From Bryobacterales bacterium (GTDB taxonomy: Bacteria > Acidobacteriota > Terriglobia > Bryobacterales > Bryobacteraceae): a stretch of DNA of 61,958 nucleotides. The notes beneath the pieces were generated by a model. It saw only the letters and a program-made list of their open reading frames with translations, had not been told where the DNA came from and did not search any database. The DNA is taken from the NCBI GenBank assembly GCA_003142185.1, contig PLOR01000034.1, positions 1-61,958 of the forward strand. Direction: 5' to 3'. Below are positions 11,683-50,602 of this stretch, one piece after another (positions within the stretch are counted from its first letter, which is position 1; every line of letters begins with the position of its first letter). The position numbers and the translations under genes are program-made.

Positions 11683-13431
11683 ATGTCCGAAAATGCCAAG
11701 CCGCGCGTATGTTTTGTGCGCCTGGCGATAGCGGCGTGTCTGGCCGCGGCAGCTTGCGCCGGACAGACGCCGGACGCTTCCGCAACGCCGCAAAACCAGC
11801 CGGAGATCAGCACCCGCGAAGAAAAAGCCACGTTCACGTCGCACGTCAACCTGGTGATGGTGCCGGTGGTGGTGCGGGACAAGCAGGGCCGCGTTGTTGA
11901 GGGCCTCACCAAGGAGTCCTTCCGCCTCTTCGACAAAGGGAAGCTGCAGGAGATCGAGCGATTCGCCGTGGAGCGGCCCGGCGCTTTGGCGAGTAATCCA
12001 CCGACGCCTGAGTCTGCCCCGGCTGGGGGAGAAGCCGCGCCGCCGGCGCCCGACCGCGCCGCGCTGGCAGGCATGCCGCGGCGTTTTGTCGGCTACCTGT
12101 TCGACGATGTGCATCTCGAGGCCGGGGATCTGTTACGGGTTCGCCAGGCCGCCGAGCGCCACATGTACGGGGATTTGAAGCCCACCGACCGCGCCGCCAT
12201 CTTCACGACTTCCGGGCAGGGTACGGTGGATTTCACCGACGACCTGGGCCAGTTGCGCGATGGCCTGGCACGCCTCATGCCGCGCCCCCTGGCGCGTTCC
12301 GGCTTTCAGGAGTGTCCCGACATCAGCTTGTACCAGGCCGATCTGATGGTCAACAGGAATGACCCACAGGCTATCGCCGCGGCGACCGCCGAGGTGATGC
12401 TCTGCCTGAACGACGGGCTGCACGTGGACGCGCGACCGATTGCGATGACGGAGGCGCAGCGCGTACTGGGCGCTGGGCAACACGAGACCCAGGTCACGCT
12501 GGCGACTCTCAAGGACACTGTGCGGCGCATGGCGGCCATGCCTGGGGAGCGCCTTCTGGTGCTGGTGTCTCCCGGATTCTACAACCCGTTCGACCGGCAG
12601 TCGGATGCGAACGATTCGATCGAGCACGCCCTGCGCGCCAACGTCATCATCAACGTCCTCAACGCCAGAGGGCTTTATACAACCAACGTTGACGCCTCCC
12701 GCAGAGTGCTGAACGCGGAGGCCGAGCGGATAAAGCAAGACATCCTGCGCCAGAGCGAGACACTGCAAGAAGGCTTGCTCGGCGGAATTGCGGCCGGCAC
12801 CGGCGGCTTCTATTTTCACAACAACAATGACCTGGCGGAAGGCTTCCGCCGCACTGCCTCGGCCCCGGAGCTGTATTATGTGCTGGGCTTCCAACCGCAG
12901 AACCTGAAGCTCGACGGCAGCTTTCACGAATTGAAGGTCGCGATCGAATCGAAAGCCGGCTACGCCATCGAAGCGCGCCGCGGCTATTATGCGCCCACGC
13001 GCCTGGAGGACGCCGCCACCACCGCCAGGCGGGAGATCGAAGATGCCCTGTTTTCACGCGAAGAGATGAATGACCTGCCGGTGCAACTGCATACCCAGTT
13101 CTTCAAAGGCGCAGGCGATACGGCTACGGTGACGGTGCTGGCGCACGTGGACCTGGCCGGTGTGAAGTTCCGCAAGGCGGATGGCCGCAACCTGAACAAC
13201 ATAACGGTGGCCTCGGCGCTGTTTGACCACAATGGGAAACTCGTGACGGGACTGGTAAAGCACCTCGACCTTCGTTTGCGCGACGACTCCCTCCAATACC
13301 GGCTGGCGCAGGGCGTCACGGTCCGCATGGCACTGGAAGCCAAGCCGGGTTCGTACCTGGTGCGGCTGGTGGTGCGGGAACTGGAAGGCCAAATGATGTC
13401 GGCCATCAATCTCACGGTCGACATACCATAG
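11683..13431 (+). CDS. VWFA-related Acidobacterial-domain protein (type I of module 1)
   Basis: 582 residues, exported: an N-terminal hydrophobic segment ends near ACAGQTPDA, either a Sec cleavage site or a weak lipobox. A beta-strand region with VNLVMVPVVVRDKQG follows at about 50-65, then a von Willebrand A-like domain whose metal-site strand reads YLFDDVHLE in place of canonical DxSxS. The LLVLVSPGFYNP strand and YYVLGFQPQ-type block are family marks. The C-terminal 200 residues are beta-rich. It is clearly paralogous to the gene at 31024-32703 over its whole length. It is followed by a second VWFA gene (13646), matching the order in the second module. The function is unknown; adhesion or surface-complex assembly is the usual guess. 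Confidence 0.88.
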   Translation: MSENAKPRVCFVRLAIAACLAAAACAGQTPDASATPQNQPEISTREEKATFTSHVNLVMVPVVVRDKQGRVVEGLTKESFRLFDKGKLQEIERFAVERPGALASNPPTPESAPAGGEAAPPAPDRAALAGMPRRFVGYLFDDVHLEAGDLLRVRQAAERHMYGDLKPTDRAAIFTTSGQGTVDFTDDLGQLRDGLARLMPRPLARSGFQECPDISLYQADLMVNRNDPQAIAAATAEVMLCLNDGLHVDARPIAMTEAQRVLGAGQHETQVTLATLKDTVRRMAAMPGERLLVLVSPGFYNPFDRQSDANDSIEHALRANVIINVLNARGLYTTNVDASRRVLNAEAERIKQDILRQSETLQEGLLGGIAAGTGGFYFHNNNDLAEGFRRTASAPELYYVLGFQPQNLKLDGSFHELKVAIESKAGYAIEARRGYYAPTRLEDAATTARREIEDALFSREEMNDLPVQLHTQFFKGAGDTATVTVLAHVDLAGVKFRKADGRNLNNITVASALFDHNGKLVTGLVKHLDLRLRDDSLQYRLAQGVTVRMALEAKPGSYLVRLVVRELEGQMMSAINLTVDIP

Positions 13432-13542
13432 CCTTCGCGGCGCCTTCGCAGGCGCTAACGCTCCCGCATAGCCGTTGAAAAAAAACAACAGTGTCGCTAT
13501 GCAGATGTCGGATGGCTCGGAAGAGCCTAGCGCGGAGAGTAT

Positions 13543-13561
13543 CTTTCAGTCAGACTGAAGG
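13543..13561. promoter_or_regulatory. Palindrome in the VWFA intergenic region
   Basis: TTCAGTC-A-GACTGAA (13545-13559), extendable by one wobble and one pair to 13543-13561, lies about 85 bases before the next start. It looks like an operator or a small RNA hairpin. The rest of the 213-base gap 13432-13645 shows no gene. Confidence 0.4.
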
Positions 13562-13645
13562 TGTGACGACAACGGGCGGAAGACGAACTGGTGCCGGCCG
13601 TCAACGGCCCGGTGGACATACTATGAAGAGAAGAAAGGCGACGAT

Positions 13646-16015
13646 ATGCGAATCCTCGGATTAGCTGGACTCACGTTTCTAGCGGCGATGGCGGCGCCGG
13701 CGCAGCAAAACCAACCGGTCCCCAATTCGGGCGTGGTGATTCGAACCGAAACCAAGCAGGTGCTGGTGGACGCGGTGGTGACCGACAAGAAGGGCAACTA
13801 CGTCCCCGATCTTTCGCAGAAAGATTTCAAGGTGCTGGAGGACGGCAAGGAACAGTCTATCCGCAGCTTCGCTTATGAAGCCGAGGCGTCTTCCCCCAAC
13901 AGCACCCAGCCGCATTACCTGGTGTTATTCTTCGACAACTCGACCATGAGTTTTAGCGACCAGGCGGTGGCGCGCCGGGCGGCGGGCAAGTTCGTCGACT
14001 CCAATGCCGGGCCTAACCGTTATATTGCGATCGTCAACTTCTCGGGCGGCTTGCAGATCGCGCAGAACTTCACCGCCGACGCGGAGCGGTTGAAGCAGGT
14101 GGTGAGCGGCGTGAAGCTCGCCAGCGTCAATCCGAACGCGGGAACCATAGCGGTCGGCGCCGACGCCTCGACGCCGTCCGCCGTCGCTTTGGACAGCGGC
14201 TTACCCAGCTTATCGACCGCTGCGGAAGCGCAGTTTGGGCAACGCGATTTGTTGCTGGCGTTGCGCGGCTTGGCCAAAGGATTGGCAGCGGTCCCGGGCC
14301 GCAAGATCCTGGTGCTGTTCACCGAAGGCTTCCCGCTGAGCATGGAGATCCGGTCCGAGGTGACCGCCGCTACGGATACGTGCAACAAAGCGAATGTGTC
14401 GATCTATCCGATCGACGTGCGCGGCCTGGTGGGAGCGGCTCCGGGGATCGCTCCCGGTCCCGGCCTTGGGCCGGGCGGGCGCGGCATGCCGTATGGCTCT
14501 TTGAACCCGGCCGCTCCGCGCGGCGGCATCTTAGCGGCGTTAGGCCTGGGCAGCGGTTTTGGCATGCTACAGCCCGCCGCCTTTTTCCAACGCGGTGGGT
14601 CGGCACCCACGGGTGGCACGGGCAGTTCGCCGGGTGGTTCGCCGGGTGGTGCGAGGCCTGGCGGCGGGACTCCGAGCCCGGCTCCGACCCGTGGACCGTC
14701 GAGCCCAGGTCCAAGCCGTGGACCGACTAATAGCCCAACCAGCACCGGTACGCGCAGCCCCACCAATCCCGGGGTTAACCCGGCCTACACCACGCCTCCG
14801 CGGATCATCGTTCCGCCGCCTCCGCCCAGTGCAAACGACAATCAGCAAGTCATGTACATGCTGGCCGATGGCACCGGCGGATTCGTGATTGCCAACACCA
14901 ATGACCTGCTAGGCGGCCTGGAGAAGATCGGCAAGGAGCAAAATCAGTACTACCTGCTTGGATACACACCGCCGGACACCCCGGAGGGGAGCTGCCACCT
15001 ATTGAAGGTGAAAATGGAGCACGGCGGATACACGGTGCGGGCGCGCAGCGGCTATTGCAATGTGAAGCAGGTGGACCTGCTGGCAGGCAAGCCGGCCGAG
15101 CGCGACCTGGAGACGCGCGCAGCCGCCGGTATCCCCGGCACCATCCAGTCCGCAGCCATGCAGGCGCCATTCTTTTATCTCTCCCCCAACGCCGCGCGTC
15201 TCGACCTGGCCCTGGAGATCCCTTCCCATTCCATCCAGTTCACCAAGGTGAAAGGCCATCAGCACGCCGATGTCAACATACTGGGGATTGCGTATGGCCC
15301 CAATGGCGCGGTGGGCGCGCGGTTCAGCGACACGGTCAAGCTCGACTTCGCCGACAAGAAGGAGCTAGAGGCCTTTCTGCAGAAGCCCTACTTGCACTAC
15401 GACAACCAGTTCGACCTGGCCTCCGGTTCCTACGATCTGAAGGTGCTCTTCAGCTCCGGCGGCGAGGAATTCGGCAAGCTGGAAAAGGATCCGCTGACCA
15501 TTGACAAGTACGATGGCAAGGGTTTGTTCATTAGTGGCGTTGCGCTCAGTACCGACTTTCACAAGGTAAGTGAGGTGGATACGGACATGGATGCCGACCT
15601 GCTGGACGGCCGCGCGCCCTTGGTGGCCCAAGGTATGCAAATCACGCCGGGCGGCAGCAATCACTTCAAGAAGTCCGACACCGCAGTCTGCTACCTGGAA
15701 GTCTACGAACCGCTGTTGCACACAGAGGGTTCGGACCAGGCCGCAGCCGGAGGCGGCGCAGCCAAGCCCGCGGGGCCCTTGCCTCAGGTGACCGTCCAAG
15801 TCCGCCTGCTGGATGCGAAGACCGGCGATCCGAAAACAGATACCGGTGCCATCGACATCACCAAACTCGCCAAACCGGGCAACCCTGTAATCCCGGTGGC
15901 ATTCCGCTTGAAAGTCGACGAGCTTGCCGTCGGCTCCTACTTTGCCGAAATTCGAGCGGTCGACGCCACCCACCGCATCGTCGCCCGCAAAGTGCCGTTT
16001 GAGGTGGTGGAGTAG
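13646..16015 (+). CDS. VWFA-related Acidobacterial-domain protein with long Pro/Gly/Ser/Thr linker (type II of module 1)
   Basis: 789 residues. A Sec signal peptide (to about residue 20, APAQQ) is followed by a strand motif VLVDAVVTDKKGNYV, then a VWA-like domain with LFFDNSTMS and the NAGPNRYIAIVNFSGG block. Residues about 275-395 are a low-complexity Gly/Pro/Ser/Thr tract, here inserted inside or after the VWA domain. The LLGYTPPDTPEGSCH block and a beta-rich C-terminal half follow. It is paralogous to the 29081-31027 product (shared NAGPNR and PEGSCHPLKV-type blocks), which has no long linker. It is the second gene of the module. Confidence 0.88.
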   Translation: MRILGLAGLTFLAAMAAPAQQNQPVPNSGVVIRTETKQVLVDAVVTDKKGNYVPDLSQKDFKVLEDGKEQSIRSFAYEAEASSPNSTQPHYLVLFFDNSTMSFSDQAVARRAAGKFVDSNAGPNRYIAIVNFSGGLQIAQNFTADAERLKQVVSGVKLASVNPNAGTIAVGADASTPSAVALDSGLPSLSTAAEAQFGQRDLLLALRGLAKGLAAVPGRKILVLFTEGFPLSMEIRSEVTAATDTCNKANVSIYPIDVRGLVGAAPGIAPGPGLGPGGRGMPYGSLNPAAPRGGILAALGLGSGFGMLQPAAFFQRGGSAPTGGTGSSPGGSPGGARPGGGTPSPAPTRGPSSPGPSRGPTNSPTSTGTRSPTNPGVNPAYTTPPRIIVPPPPPSANDNQQVMYMLADGTGGFVIANTNDLLGGLEKIGKEQNQYYLLGYTPPDTPEGSCHLLKVKMEHGGYTVRARSGYCNVKQVDLLAGKPAERDLETRAAAGIPGTIQSAAMQAPFFYLSPNAARLDLALEIPSHSIQFTKVKGHQHADVNILGIAYGPNGAVGARFSDTVKLDFADKKELEAFLQKPYLHYDNQFDLASGSYDLKVLFSSGGEEFGKLEKDPLTIDKYDGKGLFISGVALSTDFHKVSEVDTDMDADLLDGRAPLVAQGMQITPGGSNHFKKSDTAVCYLEVYEPLLHTEGSDQAAAGGGAAKPAGPLPQVTVQVRLLDAKTGDPKTDTGAIDITKLAKPGNPVIPVAFRLKVDELAVGSYFAEIRAVDATHRIVARKVPFEVVE

Positions 16016-29080: not shown

Positions 29081-31027
29081 TCATTCCGTTCGAAATTGCA
29101 CGCTGCGGGCGGTTTCGCCACCGGCGGAGTCCTTGACGGTCAGCTCGGCGCGATAGGTTCCGGGCGGAAGGGCCGCGACCGGCAATTTGAGCGCGACCGG
29201 AATCACGCGATTGCCAGATTTGGCCAGCGCACTCAAGTCGACATCGCCGGAATCCCATTTCTGCTGGTTGCTCTGTGCGTCGAGTAGGCGCAGCCGCATC
29301 GTCAACTGCACTGGCCCGGCGCCGGTTGCCGGCGGCTCGTAGATTTCGAAGTAGGCCTCGGCAGTGCCGGTCTTCGGCAAAACATCGGAGCCGGCGACGG
29401 TGATTTGGTTGCCGCGGAAGATCAGCGGCTTTTTCCCTTCCTCGACCGCCTCGTCCGCGGCGTCTTGCGATATCGGTTGCACGTCGCGGCTAAGGGCGAT
29501 GGCGCTCAGGCTGAGCTGCTCGGCATCCACAGGATCGACCGCCAACGGCGTTTCCACCACGCCGAAGCGATCCTTGGCCGTGCGGAAGATCAGTTTGAAC
29601 CGATACGTGCCGGGAGCGATTTCAAACTGGTGTTCGTAGCGGAGAGGGTGCTGGACAAACTCGTCGAACTGCTGCCGGCTGGCGAAATCGAAGCTCACCT
29701 TGTCGCCGAACCGCGCGGTCACACCGCCGCCAAGGTTGTAAGCCAGGCCGAGCACGTCCATGGTGGCCTTCAGTCTGCCATTCGCCTCGATAGGATTGAG
29801 AACCGGCGTAGGAATTTCAACTGCCAGGTCGACTCGCGCCGCTCCGCCGGCCTCATAGAAGAAGGGCGCGGCTGCCGATGCCGCGATGTTGCCCGCGTGC
29901 GGCGAGGCTGCCAGATTCTCCATCTCCGCTTCCAGCGGGTTGGTCGACGCCAAGGTGATCTCGTGGACGTTGCAATAGAGATTGCGCCCACGCACTTTCA
30001 CGTCGGGCCGGTCAACCGTGACTTTGAGCGGGTGGCAGCTTCCCTCCGGAGATTCTTGCGGGACGTAAGCAAGCGTGTAGGATTCGTCCTGCTCGCGGGC
30101 GAGCAGATCGAGGACGGCGAGAACGTCGTTGCCGCGCGAGAGCTCGTGGCCGCCGGTTATGTCGGCCAGGCTGAGCCAATAGCCTGCGGTCTGCGCGCCG
30201 GACTGCGACTCTGTCGGATAAACCGAGACATCCGCCTTGCGAAACGCAAGCTGCATCTGCTTCAGATAGGGCTCCCGAAACGCGTCCGCGTTCATCCCGG
30301 TTTGGGCCGCCATCTGCCCTATCGTTGGAGCGAACGCCGGCGGCGTGTTCTTGTCGGCGCTATAGGTCGGCGGACCGGGCGTGGTGAACAGGGCCACCAC
30401 CTTGTGGCCGCCCACGTGGCTCAGATCCTGCGCCACGTGGGCGTAAACCAACGGCCACTTCCTGCCGTCACAGAGCAACTCCGCTCCGCTGAGACCCTGT
30501 CCACCCATGGTAAACATGTTGGGCGCGGCACCCAGGGCGCGCTGAAGCTCGGCGACATCGGTCGTGAATGGCGTGACAACCTGCGCGTGGCAAACGTCCG
30601 AGTAAACCACCGACATCAGCCGGTTCGGCCCGGCGTTGTCCGCGATGAACTTCGACGCCGCCTGCTGGATGGACTTCCAGTCGTCGCCGGAATTCACGTC
30701 GAGCCAGATGACGAAGTGTTGTTGCTGCGAAATCCCCGGCGTCGGCGGCCCGAGGTGGCTCTGAAATGCAGTGATGGCCTGTTCCTTGCCATCTTCGAAG
30801 ACGTGGAAGTCCTTCGCCTCCAGGCCATGTACGGGTTCGTCCTTCTTGCCGGTTACCACCGCATCCACCAGCACCAGGCGCGCTTCGGCTTTGAGCTTCA
30901 GGCCGGTCGTGCCCTGCGCGCCGGACCCGCTGGTTTGCGCCAGCAGCGGGTAACACAGGAACAACAGCAGGGCCGCGTACTTCGCGCGGCTGCCATACTG
31001 CGATAGCTTGCTCTCTGAGGTTTTCAT
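29081..31027 (-). CDS. VWFA-related Acidobacterial-domain protein (type II of module 2)
   Basis: 648 residues. Signal peptide with an unusually long basic lead (MKTSESKLSQYGSRAKY) and a core ending LLAQ near residue 31. The strand motif LVLVDAVVTGKKDEP precedes the VWA-like domain, with FVIWLDVNSGDDW at the metal-site position (not a full DxSxS) and NAGPNRLMSVVYSD. QESPEGSCHPLKV and a beta-rich C-terminal half follow. It is paralogous to 13646-16015 but lacks the long Pro/Gly linker. Its ATG overlaps the stop of the upstream gene (ATGA, 31024-31027), so the two are translationally coupled. Confidence 0.88.
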   Translation of the reverse strand: MKTSESKLSQYGSRAKYAALLLFLCYPLLAQTSGSGAQGTTGLKLKAEARLVLVDAVVTGKKDEPVHGLEAKDFHVFEDGKEQAITAFQSHLGPPTPGISQQQHFVIWLDVNSGDDWKSIQQAASKFIADNAGPNRLMSVVYSDVCHAQVVTPFTTDVAELQRALGAAPNMFTMGGQGLSGAELLCDGRKWPLVYAHVAQDLSHVGGHKVVALFTTPGPPTYSADKNTPPAFAPTIGQMAAQTGMNADAFREPYLKQMQLAFRKADVSVYPTESQSGAQTAGYWLSLADITGGHELSRGNDVLAVLDLLAREQDESYTLAYVPQESPEGSCHPLKVTVDRPDVKVRGRNLYCNVHEITLASTNPLEAEMENLAASPHAGNIAASAAAPFFYEAGGAARVDLAVEIPTPVLNPIEANGRLKATMDVLGLAYNLGGGVTARFGDKVSFDFASRQQFDEFVQHPLRYEHQFEIAPGTYRFKLIFRTAKDRFGVVETPLAVDPVDAEQLSLSAIALSRDVQPISQDAADEAVEEGKKPLIFRGNQITVAGSDVLPKTGTAEAYFEIYEPPATGAGPVQLTMRLRLLDAQSNQQKWDSGDVDLSALAKSGNRVIPVALKLPVAALPPGTYRAELTVKDSAGGETARSVQFRTE

Positions 31028-32703
31028 GGGATCTCCACCACTCCGTTGGCGGCGGCCATCTGCTGGCCTTCGGCATCGCGCACCACGACGCGAATCATGT
31101 ACGGGCCCACCTTGACGTCGAAGTTGCTGTTCACCGTGATGCCCTGCGTGCGCCGCCGATCGAGATTCTCATCTTTCAATCGAAGCTCCACCACCTTCTG
31201 CGTTCCTTTGATGTAGTTGCCGTTGCCATCGAACAGGGCACACACCAGGGTCACGTCGTCGCGGTTCCGGTCATCCTGCTTGCGCAAGGGAAGCCGCCGG
31301 ATATCGAGATGAGTGGCGACCTTCAGCTTGGCGTCTTCGTCCGTGGTTTTGAAAAACTCGCTATGGACTTCGATCGGCAGGTCGCGCAACTCATCGCGGG
31401 AGAACACGGCCTCGCCGACTTCCCGCGTAGCGGCCGTGGCAGCGTCCTCCTCGTGCGACGGCGCCCAGTAGCCCCGGCGCGCCTGCACGGACAATCCCTT
31501 CGTGTCCGCCAGCTTCACCTTGATCTCGTGGTACTTCCCGTCCGGTTTAAGATCCTTGGGATAGAAGCCCAAATAATAAATGTACTCCGGCGGGTTGGCC
31601 AGGCGATTGAATTCTGCCAGGAAATCGTTTTGGCTGACGGAGGTGCCTCCCGTGCCATGCGCCAGATCGTCCAAGACCATCCCCTGGGCAAGATTCTGGA
31701 AATTATCGTACTTGACGACGAGCATTTGGGTCTGCTGGTTCGTCAGATGGCAGCCGGGAACATCGCCGGCCGGGTCGACGGTGAAGACGCCGCGCGCGTC
31801 GAGGGTGTTGATGACGACGCCCGCGCGGGTGGCGCGATCGATGGATGCGGTGAGGTCCCTCTGCAACTCGTCTGGAAGATACATGCCGGGCGACACCAGA
31901 ATTATCACCCGATCACCGGGCATGGCCGAGAGCAATCGCACGATGTTGTTGAGCGTGCGGAAGACGTTGACGGCTTCGCCCCTTCCTTCATTGGCGACTT
32001 CGCGGAGAGTGTCCTGGGCGATACCGGGGGCGGCGGCCGCGGCGAAACCAGTCAGGTTGAGGCAATCTATGGTAATGCCGACCTGCATCGACAGAGCCTG
32101 CTGGTCGTCGCGATTCATCCATTGGTCCGCCGCGAAGAAGGTGGCGGGAGGGAAGGTCTTGTGCGCCGGCACCACGGGCATGATCTTCATCAGCGCCTCG
32201 CGGAACTTTGCCAGGTCGCTGGTGAATTCGAGCGACACTCTGCCGGAGAGCGCGAGCAACGCCACGCGTTCCTGCGGGCGTATGCCCTTTTCGATGTGCT
32301 TCAAGGCCGCGATGCGGGCGTTCATCAGGTCTTCCATCTTGAGATGGATGTCGTCGAAAACATAGGCGGTGAAGCGGGTGGGAATCACCAGCTTGGTGCC
32401 GGTGGTGGCTGGTTCGCCGGGGATCTCCTCTTGGGCGGCCGGCTGAAAGGCAGGTTTGGGGACAGCGCTGCCCTCGATGGCGAACTGCGAAATGTACTGC
32501 GCCTTGCCGTGGTCGGTAAGCTGAAAGTCCTCTTTATGGAAGGTGCCGATGGTGTGCCCCTGCTTGTCGCGAATTACCACCGGAATGCGCACCAGATTCA
32601 CGCTCGATTGAAAGGTGGGCGTTTCGTCGCGGGTGGTAACTTCGCCGGTCTGGGTCTGCGCGGCCAGGGCGGCGGCGAGCAGGAAAAAGGTCCAAGAGCG
32701 CAT
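31024..32703 (-). CDS. VWFA-related Acidobacterial-domain protein (type I of module 2)
   Basis: 559 residues from the ATG at 32703 (GGAGAG 7 bases upstream); the frame runs further up but crosses the promoter. Short signal peptide (MRSWTFFLLAAALAAQTQ). VNLVRIPVVIRDKQG, then the VWA-like domain with YVFDDIHLK at the metal site, VIILVSPGMYLP, a conserved GTGG turn, YYLGFYPKDLKPDG, and a beta-rich C-terminus. It matches the 11683-13431 product end to end. First gene of a two-gene operon. Function unknown. Confidence 0.88.
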   Translation of the reverse strand: MRSWTFFLLAAALAAQTQTGEVTTRDETPTFQSSVNLVRIPVVIRDKQGHTIGTFHKEDFQLTDHGKAQYISQFAIEGSAVPKPAFQPAAQEEIPGEPATTGTKLVIPTRFTAYVFDDIHLKMEDLMNARIAALKHIEKGIRPQERVALLALSGRVSLEFTSDLAKFREALMKIMPVVPAHKTFPPATFFAADQWMNRDDQQALSMQVGITIDCLNLTGFAAAAAPGIAQDTLREVANEGRGEAVNVFRTLNNIVRLLSAMPGDRVIILVSPGMYLPDELQRDLTASIDRATRAGVVINTLDARGVFTVDPAGDVPGCHLTNQQTQMLVVKYDNFQNLAQGMVLDDLAHGTGGTSVSQNDFLAEFNRLANPPEYIYYLGFYPKDLKPDGKYHEIKVKLADTKGLSVQARRGYWAPSHEEDAATAATREVGEAVFSRDELRDLPIEVHSEFFKTTDEDAKLKVATHLDIRRLPLRKQDDRNRDDVTLVCALFDGNGNYIKGTQKVVELRLKDENLDRRRTQGITVNSNFDVKVGPYMIRVVVRDAEGQQMAAANGVVEIP

Positions 32704-32919: not shown

Positions 32920-32995
32920 TGGTGAGCCGGGCGAGACTCGAACTCGCGACACCCGCCTTAAAAGGGCGATGCTCTACCAACTGAGCTACCGGCCC
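32920..32995 (-). tRNA. tRNA-Lys (anticodon TTT)
   Basis: On the minus strand the sequence folds as a complete 76-base tRNA. Acceptor stem GGGCCGG / CCGGCTC has one G-U pair. The D arm contains AGCTCAGTTGGTAGAGC, the anticodon loop reads CTTTTAA, the T arm contains GAGTTCGAGTCTC, and the CCA end is encoded. Confidence 0.97.
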
Positions 32996-46220: not shown

Positions 46221-47204
46221 TCAGAACGACCGGCTCGGCCGATACCCGGGCCGCGAGTGGATGCGGTACTTCTTGCCCACGTCGCTGACGATCTCGACGG
46301 TGATCTTGCGGAAGCCCTCGTTCGGATTGGCGGCGGGGTAGTAGGCGATGGTGTACGAGTTGCTCATGTCCTCGCGGATGTCGTCGAACGCTTCCACCTG
46401 GCGCTGCCAGGTGCGCGCCCAATAGGCTTTTCCTCCGGTACGCTGGGCGATGCGGCGGAAAACGCCGCTCGAAATGGGGTCCTTGTTGACCTCGCTGGTG
46501 GAGATGACATAAATCGGGATGCCTTCGTCTTCGGCCACTGCGCGCACGTCGTCGGGGGCGATCATGCTGGCGTTGTCGGGGCCGTTCGAAAATACGATCA
46601 CCACCTTGCGGCCAGGCACTTTGGCGGCATCGCGCAGGGTCAGCAGCAGCGCGTTGTAGAGTGCCGTGTCATCGCCGGCGACGGCGTTTCGTAAGCCCTC
46701 GATGGCGTCGCCGTGCTCGCGGGTGAGCGAAGCCGCGCGCGACAGGTTGCGGCTGAAAGTGTAGACGGCCACCGAATCCGCGTGATCCAGGCCGCGCACG
46801 AAATCGGCGATCGCATCTTCGGCATAGACAAAGCCGCGGTACATGAAATTACTGGTATCGAACAGAACGAAAACGTTGGTGCCGACGAAAGCATCGGGAC
46901 GGTCCATGCCCGGCACGGCCCCCTTGGCGTTCAGCAAGGGCGTCGTGGTGCCGTCGGCGTTGATTGCCACTGGCGTGTTGGCGCCTTCGGCGAAGGTCGA
47001 GATCTTCTGCGCGATGCCGTCTTCGAAGATGCGGAAGTCGGCCGGCTTGAGGCCGTTAATGTAGTGGTTCTTGCTGTCGGTGACCTGGAAGCTGTGCACC
47101 ACCATGTCCACCTTGACGCGGAATACGGGCCCCTGCGGCTCCTGCGCCCGCAGCAATGTGCCACCGGCGGCGGCTGCCAGGAACCCTCGTCTGGACAGTG
47201 TCAT
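46221..47204 (-). CDS. VWFA-related protein with twin-arginine signal
   Basis: 327 residues. MTLSRRGFLAAAAGG is a Tat signal, unlike the Sec signals of the other four family members. FRVKVDMVVHSFQV and the VWA-like core follow with FVLFDTSNFM at the metal site, and GRKVVIVFSNGPDN. The protein lacks the long beta-rich C-terminal half seen in the two modules. Its start overlaps the stop of the 1133-residue gene by four bases (ATGA, 47201-47204), so the two are coupled. Probably acts outside the membrane with that partner. Confidence 0.87.
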   Translation of the reverse strand: MTLSRRGFLAAAAGGTLLRAQEPQGPVFRVKVDMVVHSFQVTDSKNHYINGLKPADFRIFEDGIAQKISTFAEGANTPVAINADGTTTPLLNAKGAVPGMDRPDAFVGTNVFVLFDTSNFMYRGFVYAEDAIADFVRGLDHADSVAVYTFSRNLSRAASLTREHGDAIEGLRNAVAGDDTALYNALLLTLRDAAKVPGRKVVIVFSNGPDNASMIAPDDVRAVAEDEGIPIYVISTSEVNKDPISSGVFRRIAQRTGGKAYWARTWQRQVEAFDDIREDMSNSYTIAYYPAANPNEGFRKITVEIVSDVGKKYRIHSRPGYRPSRSF

Positions 47205-50200
47205 TGTGGCCTCCCGGTGGGCATATCTTGAAGCGCCGCTTTTTGATCGGCCGACGCGGCACGCGCATGCTCGCGAACGTCATCGCCGACCGCACGCAAC
47301 GACCGCAGCAACGCGGGCCAGTCCTCCAGGTGAGACGCGAAAATGTGCTCCACCAACTCCCTCGTCCATTGCGGAATGCGGACGTTGAGTTGCGCCGGCC
47401 GCAGGCTTAGCTCGTCGGCCAGCGCGACCCAGTACAGGTTGTTGGATTCCCAGCTTTCCGCCAGGATGCGGCTGGAGTAGCCCATCAGCGTGGGGAACGT
47501 GCGCACGTTGAGCAACTCGGGCCGATAAGAAGTAGCCAGCGTCGGCTTGGGCGCGCCGAAGGCGCGCGAGATGGCCGCCAGGCTCACTTGGCTGGAAGCT
47601 TCGCGCGAGAGCCGCTCGATCTGGGCGCGCACCGAGGAACGATCGCCGGCGCGCGCCGGCTCCAGCGCGCGGCTGAGCCAGAACAACTCGGCCGGCGTCA
47701 CCTGGTCGACGGCTTCTTTGACTTGCCCCCTCTCGATCAAGGCGCGCAGTTGGGCGGTGCGCGCGGGCGCGGCCAGCCGGCCTAATTCCACCATGGCCGC
47801 CTCGCGCGCCGATTCATCCAGCGCGGCCTCGGCCAGCAACTCGCGCCCGTAACGTAAATTCAGTCCCACCCAATGCATTTGAACCGGGGTGACGTTCCAC
47901 CAGCGCGGAATCTTGGCGCTGAGCATCATTTGCGGTACCAGGTCGCCCCAGATCAGCGCCTGGGTTTGCGCGGGCACCAGAAAATTCTCTTCGGCTTCCG
48001 CCAGCGCGTACGGCAAACTGGAAAGGGATCCTACCAGGCGGCCGCCGCCGTTGGATGGCCAGCCCGAGCCGTAGGGTTCGGTGGCCTTCCATAAATTGGT
48101 TTGGCCTTCGCCGCCGATGAAATCGTGGCTGCGGACGAACACCGGGTTGGTGAAGAGCACTTGAGCCCCTGGCGGAGCGTAGTACGCATAGCTCAGGCCG
48201 AGCAGGGAATCGCGCAACAGCGGCGCCAGCACCTCCGGCAGGTTCGCAAGGCGGGCGGGGTCGCCGGCGGCCTTTTCGATGGCCAGGCGCAGGTTCAGCT
48301 TGCGCTCGGCATCCAGATGCTTCCCGCTCCAAAAGCCGAAACCCATGGCATTGCGTTCGACCACGGTGAGCGGCGCGCGAGCGAGCGGCGCCGCCGCGAT
48401 GCGCCCGGCCAGCTTCGCCATTTGCGCGCTGGCGGCCTTGTCGGGGCGCTGCCCGCTCTCGAGCAAATCGCTCAATTGGAACAACGTGTCGAGCGAGACC
48501 AGGTGCTGCGCGTCCAGAATCCGCAGCATCTCCTCTTCCATCTCCTGGCGGGTTTCGACATCGTCCGATTCGGCGGCTCCGGTCAGCAGGCCGGCCATCC
48601 GTTCCTGGGGTCCGGCGGTCGAATCGGCGGGCTTCGCCGCCGCATTGAGCAACGATTGGAAGCCGCGATGGCCGGCGTCGAACAACTCGCGGGCGGAATG
48701 CACATCGGCGAAACCCGCGGCAACTCCGGCGAAGGCTTCGTCGGCGTTGCGGTCCGCGATGGTCTGCTGGCGCACCAGGATCTGCCACAACGAAACCAGC
48801 GCCTGGAAGGTCCCGCCGGCATCGGCGCGCAGGGCCGGCTCGTGCAGCCGGGTCAGCGCCTCGGCGGTATCCAGGAACTGGTTGATGCTCTTGTCGCTCA
48901 ACTGCGGCGCTTCGCTGAAAACCGCGAACTGGCTGCCGTAAGTGTGCCAGGAGCGCGCCAGGCGCTCCACCGTGGCCGCTCCGAGCGGGGTGGCGCGGCC
49001 GCGGTCAATGTCGGTCAGCGCCATGAAGATCTTGAGCGGCTGGTTTTCCACCGTCTTGCGGCACAGCGCGAACAACGCCTCCAGCAGGTCGTCCGGTTCT
49101 TTCCACGTGGCGGCCAGCCGTGTCAGCTTGCCGTCGTACCGGGCCTGCGGGTTGTTGGTGAACAGGCCCTTCCACACTTCCAGGTTGCCCGGCACGTGCG
49201 GTTTGCCGCTGGCGTCGAGTTCCAGGCGGGTGGTCAGCAGCAGCATATCGCTGTTGGAGCGAAACACCGGGCGGGCCGGCCCGGGGCTGGTGACTTTCCC
49301 GCGCACCGCCGCGTAGAAACGCTTCATGCGCACCGGATCCGTCAGGTAGTCGCGCACCGGTGTATTGATGCGCGCCAGCGAGTCGAAGAGGCTGGCCAGC
49401 CAGCCGTCGTCCTTGGCCAGCAGCTTGCCGAAAAACTCCACTCCGCGATCCGGCGAGACTCCCACCAGTTCGCCCCACGCCGCCGCCGAACGCGCTCCGC
49501 CGGGCACCACCGCTTTGCCGTCGCGCAGCTCGAATTGGCCGCCGAAGAAATCGAGCACGTGCGCATATACACGCAGATGGGTCAGCGTGCCCGCATCGTG
49601 CATCGCCGCGGCGGTGGCCGGCTCCAGGTTGGACAGCCCCAGGTAGAGGCGGCACAGCGAGGGATCGGAGATCAGCGCTTCGATGAAATCGGGCTCCTTG
49701 CTTCCCGCCGTCCAGTAAGCCGGGCCGAACATCACCGGCACGAGTGTGGGATGAAAATCATAGCTGAACGGGCGGTTCGTTCGCAGCGCCTCTTCCAGGC
49801 GGTTCACCGGAAAGCCGGAATCGGCGGTCAGAAACGCGCGCCCGGCATTCACCGTCTCCAGCACCACCTCCGAGCCGCACCCGCCGCGCATGCGGAAACC
49901 GAGGATGCGCAACAGATCGCCGGCATTGGGTGAATCGCAATTTGGCACCTGAATCGCATACTGCGCGCCCGCCAGCTTCTCCAGCTCATGCGCCTGCGCG
50001 AGATAACGGTGCAGCAGTTTCAGGTACTCGGTCTGTTCCAGCGTCTCGTTGCTGCGCGAGGCCTGGTAGCCGTTAGTGACGACATTCCGCGCCAGCGCCG
50101 GCAGCACGTCCTCGGGCGCCGCCTCGGGCGCAATGGCGGCCATTCGCGCGAACGATCGCATCGGTCCGGGTATGGGGACGGTAGGCCACGCTTCGCGCGG

Positions 50201-50602
50201 CTCGCTCGAAGAGAAGGGAAGCGCCTTGCCGGTGATGGCGCGATAAGATTCTCGATCGCGCGTCAACGCCTCGCCGTCTCCCGCCAGCAGGTCGAGGATT
50301 ACCAGCCGGTGCGCGATCTCGGCTGCCTCGGCCGCGCCGCCTGCCCGGCGCAACTGCGCCAGGAGCTGGGCATACACCGCGCGCGCTTCCGGTTGGCCGT
50401 ACTGTTCCAGAAACTCCGCGTAGGATCTGAGGGCGGCTGCGCTGCCGGGATTCTTCTGCACGGCGGAGGCCAGCATGCCGCGGGCCTCATTGGCATCGCC
50501 GGCGGATTCCGGTTGACGCATCTGCGCCGGGTTTTGCCAGGCCGGCAAAACAGAAATGGGAAACAGGCACCCAGCCGTTACGACAATCGACCAGAGCTTC
50601 AT
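47201..50602 (-). CDS. Large exported protein of unknown function, VWFA partner
   Basis: 1133 residues. Sec signal (MKLWSIVVTAGCLFPISVLPAW) with a cut near residue 22. The first 120 residues look like TPR/helical repeats (SAAALRSYAEFLEQYG, ARAVYAQLLAQLR). The rest is helical with few Cys. No catalytic motif or known family is recognised. A good ribosome site (GGGAGGG) precedes the ATG. It is transcribed before the Tat-VWFA gene and overlaps it by four bases. The pair may form a surface or periplasmic complex, by inference from coupling only. Confidence 0.8.
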   Translation of the reverse strand: MKLWSIVVTAGCLFPISVLPAWQNPAQMRQPESAGDANEARGMLASAVQKNPGSAAALRSYAEFLEQYGQPEARAVYAQLLAQLRRAGGAAEAAEIAHRLVILDLLAGDGEALTRDRESYRAITGKALPFSSSEPREAWPTVPIPGPMRSFARMAAIAPEAAPEDVLPALARNVVTNGYQASRSNETLEQTEYLKLLHRYLAQAHELEKLAGAQYAIQVPNCDSPNAGDLLRILGFRMRGGCGSEVVLETVNAGRAFLTADSGFPVNRLEEALRTNRPFSYDFHPTLVPVMFGPAYWTAGSKEPDFIEALISDPSLCRLYLGLSNLEPATAAAMHDAGTLTHLRVYAHVLDFFGGQFELRDGKAVVPGGARSAAAWGELVGVSPDRGVEFFGKLLAKDDGWLASLFDSLARINTPVRDYLTDPVRMKRFYAAVRGKVTSPGPARPVFRSNSDMLLLTTRLELDASGKPHVPGNLEVWKGLFTNNPQARYDGKLTRLAATWKEPDDLLEALFALCRKTVENQPLKIFMALTDIDRGRATPLGAATVERLARSWHTYGSQFAVFSEAPQLSDKSINQFLDTAEALTRLHEPALRADAGGTFQALVSLWQILVRQQTIADRNADEAFAGVAAGFADVHSARELFDAGHRGFQSLLNAAAKPADSTAGPQERMAGLLTGAAESDDVETRQEMEEEMLRILDAQHLVSLDTLFQLSDLLESGQRPDKAASAQMAKLAGRIAAAPLARAPLTVVERNAMGFGFWSGKHLDAERKLNLRLAIEKAAGDPARLANLPEVLAPLLRDSLLGLSYAYYAPPGAQVLFTNPVFVRSHDFIGGEGQTNLWKATEPYGSGWPSNGGGRLVGSLSSLPYALAEAEENFLVPAQTQALIWGDLVPQMMLSAKIPRWWNVTPVQMHWVGLNLRYGRELLAEAALDESAREAAMVELGRLAAPARTAQLRALIERGQVKEAVDQVTPAELFWLSRALEPARAGDRSSVRAQIERLSREASSQVSLAAISRAFGAPKPTLATSYRPELLNVRTFPTLMGYSSRILAESWESNNLYWVALADELSLRPAQLNVRIPQWTRELVEHIFASHLEDWPALLRSLRAVGDDVREHARAASADQKAALQDMPTGRPQ

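Follow-up and report, generated by a model that had tools for sequence, protein, structure and literature searches.

Do members of an expanded protein family work alone or in twos? In Acidobacteria, major soil bacteria, the large and as yet uncharacterised TIGR03436 family consists of von Willebrand factor type A (VWFA or VWA) proteins and is defined by paralogous expansion in acidobacterial but not in unrelated genomes. The window analysed here is an entire contig (PLOR01000034.1, 61,958 bases; C2 in our own labelling of genomes, G, contigs, C, and loci, L) within the 5.79-Mb genome of a Bryobacterales bacterium, and it carries two modules, A and B, that pose this question. In each of them a gene for a type I protein, marked by FDDxHL, precedes a gene for a type II protein, marked by NAGPNR and a PEGSCH block. 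An earlier note on this DNA had proposed that the two types act as a pair, and translation bears out the common make-up that it described. The order is kept although the modules face opposite ways, A on the plus and B on the minus strand with type II always 3' of type I, and in module B the stop of the first gene and the start of the second share four bases (ATGA); the modules are about 13 kb apart, not 15 kb. All four proteins score above the TIGR03436 cut-off of 81.25 bits (238.9, 230.3, 121.5 and 192.2). We show here that type I and type II genes are adjacent, ordered and inherited together. Our favoured reading, to which we give a probability of roughly 0.6, is an operon-like unit, complete in itself, whose two paralogous products would be exported and would cooperate as a heteromeric scaffold or receptor. 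Joint action of the two types is very likely. Of the pairing originally proposed, adjacency, order and co-inheritance stand as observations, while mutual binding is what we infer by analogy and hold to be somewhat probable.

Adjacent co-occurrence, one of the checks named in the earlier note, was screened in 349 genomes sampled evenly from the window's class. Three candidates were scored per genome, so that multi-copy genomes are undercounted. With a type II threshold of 420 bits, chosen after a gap from 420 to 369 bits was seen, and with type I counted down to about 420 bits among the matches listed, type II is present in 94 and type I in 105 genomes; both types occur in 91, only type I in 14, only type II in three and neither in 241 (Fisher p = 2e-64, uncorrected for relatedness). 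A same-strand type I match lies upstream within 1.6 kb for 97 of 115 type II matches. All three II-only matches start or stop within about 110 bases of a contig end where type I is expected, and reading of the 14 I-only genomes revealed a complete or cut type II gene next to type I in seven and a locus running off its contig in one (G151). Among 81 relatives, 14 genomes have a clear type II gene (at least 260 bits) and each of these also has type I at E 1e-40; at this level type I occurs in four further genomes (G029, G046, G069, G074), with a type II fragment at a contig end in G046. In the loci that were fetched, counted without deduplication and with overlap between loci from the G genomes and named contigs, 170 type II genes were seen, and 142 of them directly follow a same-strand type I gene, be it whole, cut or broken. 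Thirteen lie at a sequence end, so 142 of 157 testable genes follow type I, and the other 15 have something else upstream, some of them being part of type II arrays. Nine further type II fragments are located at sequence ends, and all six of these whose position could be judged follow type I. A gap of -4 was found in 20 of 146 measured pairs, again not deduplicated. The related loci that bear titles are acidobacterial in 78 of 79 cases (Bryobacterales, Acidobacteriaceae, Candidatus Sulfotelmatobacter, Candidatus Acidiferrales and others) and derive almost throughout from metagenome assemblies. One pair stands in a record titled Nevskia soli, a gammaproteobacterium (L227, NZ_CAJCHS010000388.1), possibly by mislabelling or transfer. 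A phylum sample of 247 genomes, its share from outside the class being unstated, has type II (E 1e-115 or better) in three genomes, all of the window's class.

Trees of the two types, the other check proposed in the earlier note, agree in topology across the class. At the thresholds used, neither of the two outcomes that would have spoken against the proposal, unrelated topologies or a majority of genomes with just one type, was obtained. Of 135 complete pairs, 106 distinct ones were aligned, leaving out 29 that were duplicates or short, and one FastTree tree was built for each type. Type I and type II distances correlate with Mantel r = 0.909 over the 106 pairs, where 1000 label shuffles gave a maximum of 0.28. 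The trees have 65 of 103 splits in common (maximum of two in 500 shuffles), 48 common splits are supported by at least 0.9 in both, and of the 68 type I splits with support, seven clash with a type II split that is also supported. Exchange of partners within genomes, possible for 27 pairs in 11 multi-pair genomes, removes the part that is due to species descent; the observed correlation was reached in 1 of 5000 exchanges, with null means of 0.878 for all 106 pairs (observed 0.909) and 0.798 for the 27 exchangeable ones (observed 0.926). An unpaired VWFA gene (relatives of C35:79795) served as control in 18 of the 19 genomes that carry it among 30 searched, G294 being left out as it has no pair in the set. 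Its correlation is 0.36 with type I and 0.33 with type II, values that may be lowered by paralogues mixed into the control, compared to 0.94 between type I and type II in the same 18 genomes. Since the trees agree, partner exchange reached the observed value only once in 5000 and the unpaired control correlates poorly, each pair is inherited largely as a unit.

Several observations weigh against a partnership of the products. Matching trees and adjacency are expected from linkage alone and are therefore no demonstration of binding. Most of the tree correlation outlives the within-genome swaps, so that the partner-specific signal rests on the 27 pairs and 11 genomes named above. The nearest neighbour is identical in both trees for only 68 of the 106 pairs, the trees disagree on which group is next sister to the B clade, and residue covariation between partners does not exceed the level left when close relatives are swapped (mean of the top 50, 0.265; null mean, 0.266). 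Six of the 14 I-only genomes lack a type II gene beside type I (G029, G096, G133, G141, G155, G196). Relaxing the type I threshold to E 1e-60 gives profile matches in 135 of the 349 genomes, 30 more than the 105 above; two of these (G159, G234) are II-only genomes and 28 are without a listed type II, so that, judged by sequence matches, there is a distant type-I-like group without partner. Two type II genes are truly alone (L125, L128). Certain loci read I-I-I-II or hold several type II genes, and the ratio of I to II therefore need not be 1:1. The linkage argument and the null result on covariation also speak for co-inheritance without partnership, in which a VWFA gene was duplicated in tandem and the copies, under a shared promoter, moved as a block with products that act independently. 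The source genome does hold further tandem VWFA genes (C79, C116), and types I and II, though remote paralogues, can still be matched to one another by sequence comparison. Under this explanation, however, loss should split independent genes, yet type II rarely occurs without type I, and order and adjacency are kept across many genera despite differing neighbours. We thus regard it as unlikely.

Single loci show further arrangements. The solitary type II genes L125 (G267:C20) and L128 (G246:C380) belong to genomes that hold pairs elsewhere. Three consecutive type I genes are followed by one type II gene at L091 (G015:C54) and L092 (G035:C102). At L105/L244 (G037:C136) a type I gene stands amid four type II genes, with a second type I gene on the opposite strand, and C-terminal extensions of ~280 residues without a Pfam match are present in two of these type II proteins. 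The paired type I gene of L097/L215 (G031:C248) is split into two frames and its type II gene is still open. A locus of an AT-rich relative, L144:4131-7625 (G133:C9), which was read from the list of open reading frames since the gene caller, trained on the source genome, gave no genes there, has a type-I-like VWFA region in a 1164-residue frame and type II is absent downstream.

How old is the duplication within the window? The source genome contains 42 TIGR03436 matches, with 38 distinct reading frames over the cut-off, whereas none of 14 control genomes exceeds it (four register below). Its five type II genes (C2:13646, C2:29081, C113:63738, C88:41066 and C85:734) all lie directly 3' of a same-strand type I gene. 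Four of the five pairs are of the B kind, the other three being 61-72% identical to the pair in the window; all four carry the four-base overlap, and the flanks at their sites look unrelated. Between modules A and B, the type I proteins are 40-41% identical across about 550 residues, and the type II proteins 39-40% in the C-terminal 380 residues and 32% in about 200 N-terminal residues. In the type I and type II trees alike, module A lies nearest to L249, which comes from a Bryobacterales assembly (support 0.977 and 0.974), and the B kind clusters in both with the two pairs of G001, another genome of the genus (support 1.0). Because A and B cluster with pairs of other genomes, they are old paralogues, and multiplication here is limited to B. 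The modules are paralogous, as their description as a duplicated cassette had implied, but not recent copies of each other. The ratio of nonsynonymous to synonymous substitution rates among the four B copies is 0.30-0.47 for both genes; they are under purifying selection, though not strong. Two type I genes of the genome are unpaired. One, on C56 (L042:1482-4571), is 66% identical to the module A type I and carries at its N-terminus an extension of ~430 residues for which Pfam gives no match at E 0.01; type II is absent beside the gene. The other, on C116 (L034:7059-11130), encodes a 997-residue protein with two fused type-I-like VWFA domains, and a third VWFA gene follows it.

The features of both modules are collected in the table. 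For the type II gene of module A we set the start at 13646, which yields a signal-like N-terminus, where the gene caller chose 13688; the type I gene of module B was started at the ATG at 32703, which fits the alignment, where the list of open reading frames begins at a GTG at 32952. No terminator-like site was found in the gap between the module A genes, and a scan of module A for promoters and terminators found 0 and 2, against 1.1 and 5.3 expected. Elsewhere in the window, at 46221-50602 on the minus strand, a further TIGR03436 gene (327 amino acids) overlaps by four bases with an upstream gene for 1133 amino acids.

Table. Positions of the two VWFA modules and their motifs in the window; MIDAS, metal ion-dependent adhesion site; pLDDT, predicted local distance difference test.
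Feature	Position	Strand	Remarks
Module A, type I VWFA gene	11683..13431	+	582 amino acids; translation, TIGR03436 match, structure prediction
Module A, type I domains			N-terminal segment, then the beta strands and VWA of the TIGR03436 core (residues 50-438), then a beta domain at the C-terminus (about 444-582)
FDDVHL, first MIDAS position, type I, module A	12100..12117	+	translation and alignment of 106 pairs
Intergenic gap, module A	13432..13645	+	214 bases if type II starts at 13646
Module A, type II VWFA gene	13646..16015	+	789 amino acids; VWA core, low-confidence insert, beta-rich C-terminal region
NAGPNR motif, type II, module A	14003..14020	+	
Gly/Pro/Ser-rich insert, VWA-domain loop, type II, module A	14432..14797	+	residues 263-384; pLDDT nearly all below 50
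PEGSCH block, type II, module A	14981..14998	+	Cys is 450 counted from 13646 (436 in alignment numbering)
Module B, type I VWFA gene	31024..32703	-	559 amino acids
FDDIHL, first MIDAS position, type I, module B	32341..32358	-	
ATGA, type I stop and type II start, module B	31024..31027	-	4-base overlap
Module B, type II VWFA gene	29081..31027	-	648 amino acids
NAGPNR motif, type II, module B	30620..30637	-	
PEGSCH block, type II, module B	30032..30049	-	

Structure prediction gives, with good confidence, a model of the type I protein (pLDDT 85.6, predicted template modelling score 0.82) in which strands, the VWA domain, more strands and a C-terminal beta domain follow one another, the predicted strands at 58-97 and 398-436 flanking the VWA domain. 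In the type II model (77.1 and 0.66), a long stretch of low confidence is inserted in the VWA domain, and beta regions come after the domain; the consensus of 63 type II proteins is rich in Gly at this insert. Both models match solved VWA domains with Z scores of 16-19 (best 18.0 for type I and 18.8 for type II). The matches list VWA proteins, many of them tied, and have little bearing on the C-terminal domains. Foldseek alone ranked large unrelated proteins first, with low TM-scores, and was discarded, and a sequence search of solved structures returned chance and low-complexity matches only. The FDD(V/I)HL motif had been placed at the metal site, and it does occupy the first MIDAS position; it marks a position in a degenerate site rather than an established metal site. 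With positions assigned by eye, the first motif of type I is D-D-x-H (D141 in 105, D142 in 106 and H144 in 89 of 106 proteins), and D141, D142, S177 and T185 are each kept in 103-106 of them. Such conservation would suit integrin-like, metal-dependent binding via type I, with Asp-Asp-x-His as an unusual metal site. Against this, the Asp of the third site is present in eight of 106 type I and two of 106 type II proteins, and DxSxS is conserved in neither type, which makes integrin-like binding improbable. In the first motif of type II, 102 of the 106 proteins show D and 75 show S, with Met at the fifth position in 70, and the canonical MIDAS (DxSxS, Thr, Asp) is seen in neither type among the 106 pairs.

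Both proteins are probably exported, as suggested by a hydrophobic N-terminus without internal spans. A crude script finds such an N-terminus in 92 of 106 type I and 102 of 106 type II proteins and a lipobox in one and four of them, respectively. No internal membrane span was found in any of the 106 proteins of either type by a hydropathy script that skips the first 60 residues, so an uncleaved N-terminal anchor is possible. Type I has two conserved cysteines (100 and 106 of 106), and in type II the Cys of PEGSCH and that of GYCN, each present in 88 of 106 proteins, may pair as a disulphide; the His of PEGSCH is kept in 98. Could such exported proteins be a surface adhesin or carbohydrate-binding pair, whose C-terminal domains bind envelope or extracellular polysaccharide and whose VWA domains join the subunits? 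The export-like N-termini agree with this idea, and so do matches to Wzt_C, the carbohydrate-binding C-terminal domain of Wzt, in eight of 62 type I proteins (best E 4e-4), and to Big_13 and Y_Y_Y in four and three of 63 type II proteins. These domain matches are, however, weak and scattered and occur in a minority of proteins, and none of the four window proteins reaches a Pfam cut-off, those of module A matching no Pfam family. A constant neighbour of whatever kind is also missing: clustering of 381 proteins near the 106 pairs gave no constant third partner, the largest families being present in nine of 87 genomes. We therefore consider a polysaccharide-binding pair rather unlikely. No window protein matches a PADLOC defence profile at E 0.01.

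Returning to the favoured operon-like unit, we picture its action as follows. Both genes would be transcribed together, and both proteins would be exported by Sec to the periplasm or beyond and form internal disulphides. Because a complete MIDAS is kept in neither type, the VWA faces are more likely to make contacts between proteins than to mediate adhesion of the classical metal-dependent kind. The C-terminal beta domains and the flexible type II insert would meet the ligand, which may be a surface polymer, an envelope protein or a foreign cell. Where a genome has several divergent pairs, these could provide several specificities, with every type I protein having its own type II partner. A stronger version, which we consider doubtful, is a class-wide matched and exported heterodimer, multiplied within genomes and diversified there, in which type I recognises only its own type II; this would be a bacterial receptor or adhesin set with two I-domain-like subunits and with Asp-Asp-x-His replacing the MIDAS of type I. 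A fixed, co-inherited pair turns part of the 38 orphan paralogues into a testable unit, and the five matched pairs in one genome are a natural set for tests of partner specificity.

How does the pair compare with what is known? The model TIGR03436 acidobact_VWFA (NCBIfam) spans the beta/VWA core and is matched by types I and II alike; I-II pairing forms no part of it. Literature searches, which left most subscription journals outside their coverage, found no description of the pair. Among 27 Solibacter paralogue groups, 'von Willebrand factor, type A' is listed as too divergent for the saturation test of one study (PMC3174227). BatB (3ibs) matches both models, with Z of 17.5 and 17.1. BatA and BatB of Bacteroides aerotolerance are adjacent bacterial VWA genes whose products are membrane-anchored and belong to MoxR operons, whereas the pair described here has no internal span by the hydropathy script and no constant neighbour. 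Inter-alpha-inhibitor heavy chain 1, a secreted animal VWA protein with an intact MIDAS, matches the type I model (6fpy_A, Z 17.8, root-mean-square deviation 2.5, 165 residues aligned, model residues 69-434) at 10% identity. The top structural match of type I is the archaeal motility regulator ArnB (8s05_B, Z 18.0, root-mean-square deviation 4.4, 208 residues aligned, model residues 72-431; 12% identity), with which about thirty listed matches are tied within 1 Z. ArnB is described as a beta-sandwich split by a VWA domain, likened to the core of Sec23/24, and with a helical C-terminal domain (PMC12852372). A similar split sandwich in type I is suggested by the strand layout of the model and the span of the alignment. 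The acidobacterial proteins differ from ArnB in their predicted beta C-terminal domains and export-like N-termini. The latter also set them apart from Sec23/24, which work in the cytoplasm. Sec23/Sec24 and Ku70/Ku80 are paralogous VWA-plus-beta proteins that form heteromers, and it seems plausible that type I and type II would assemble in the same manner.

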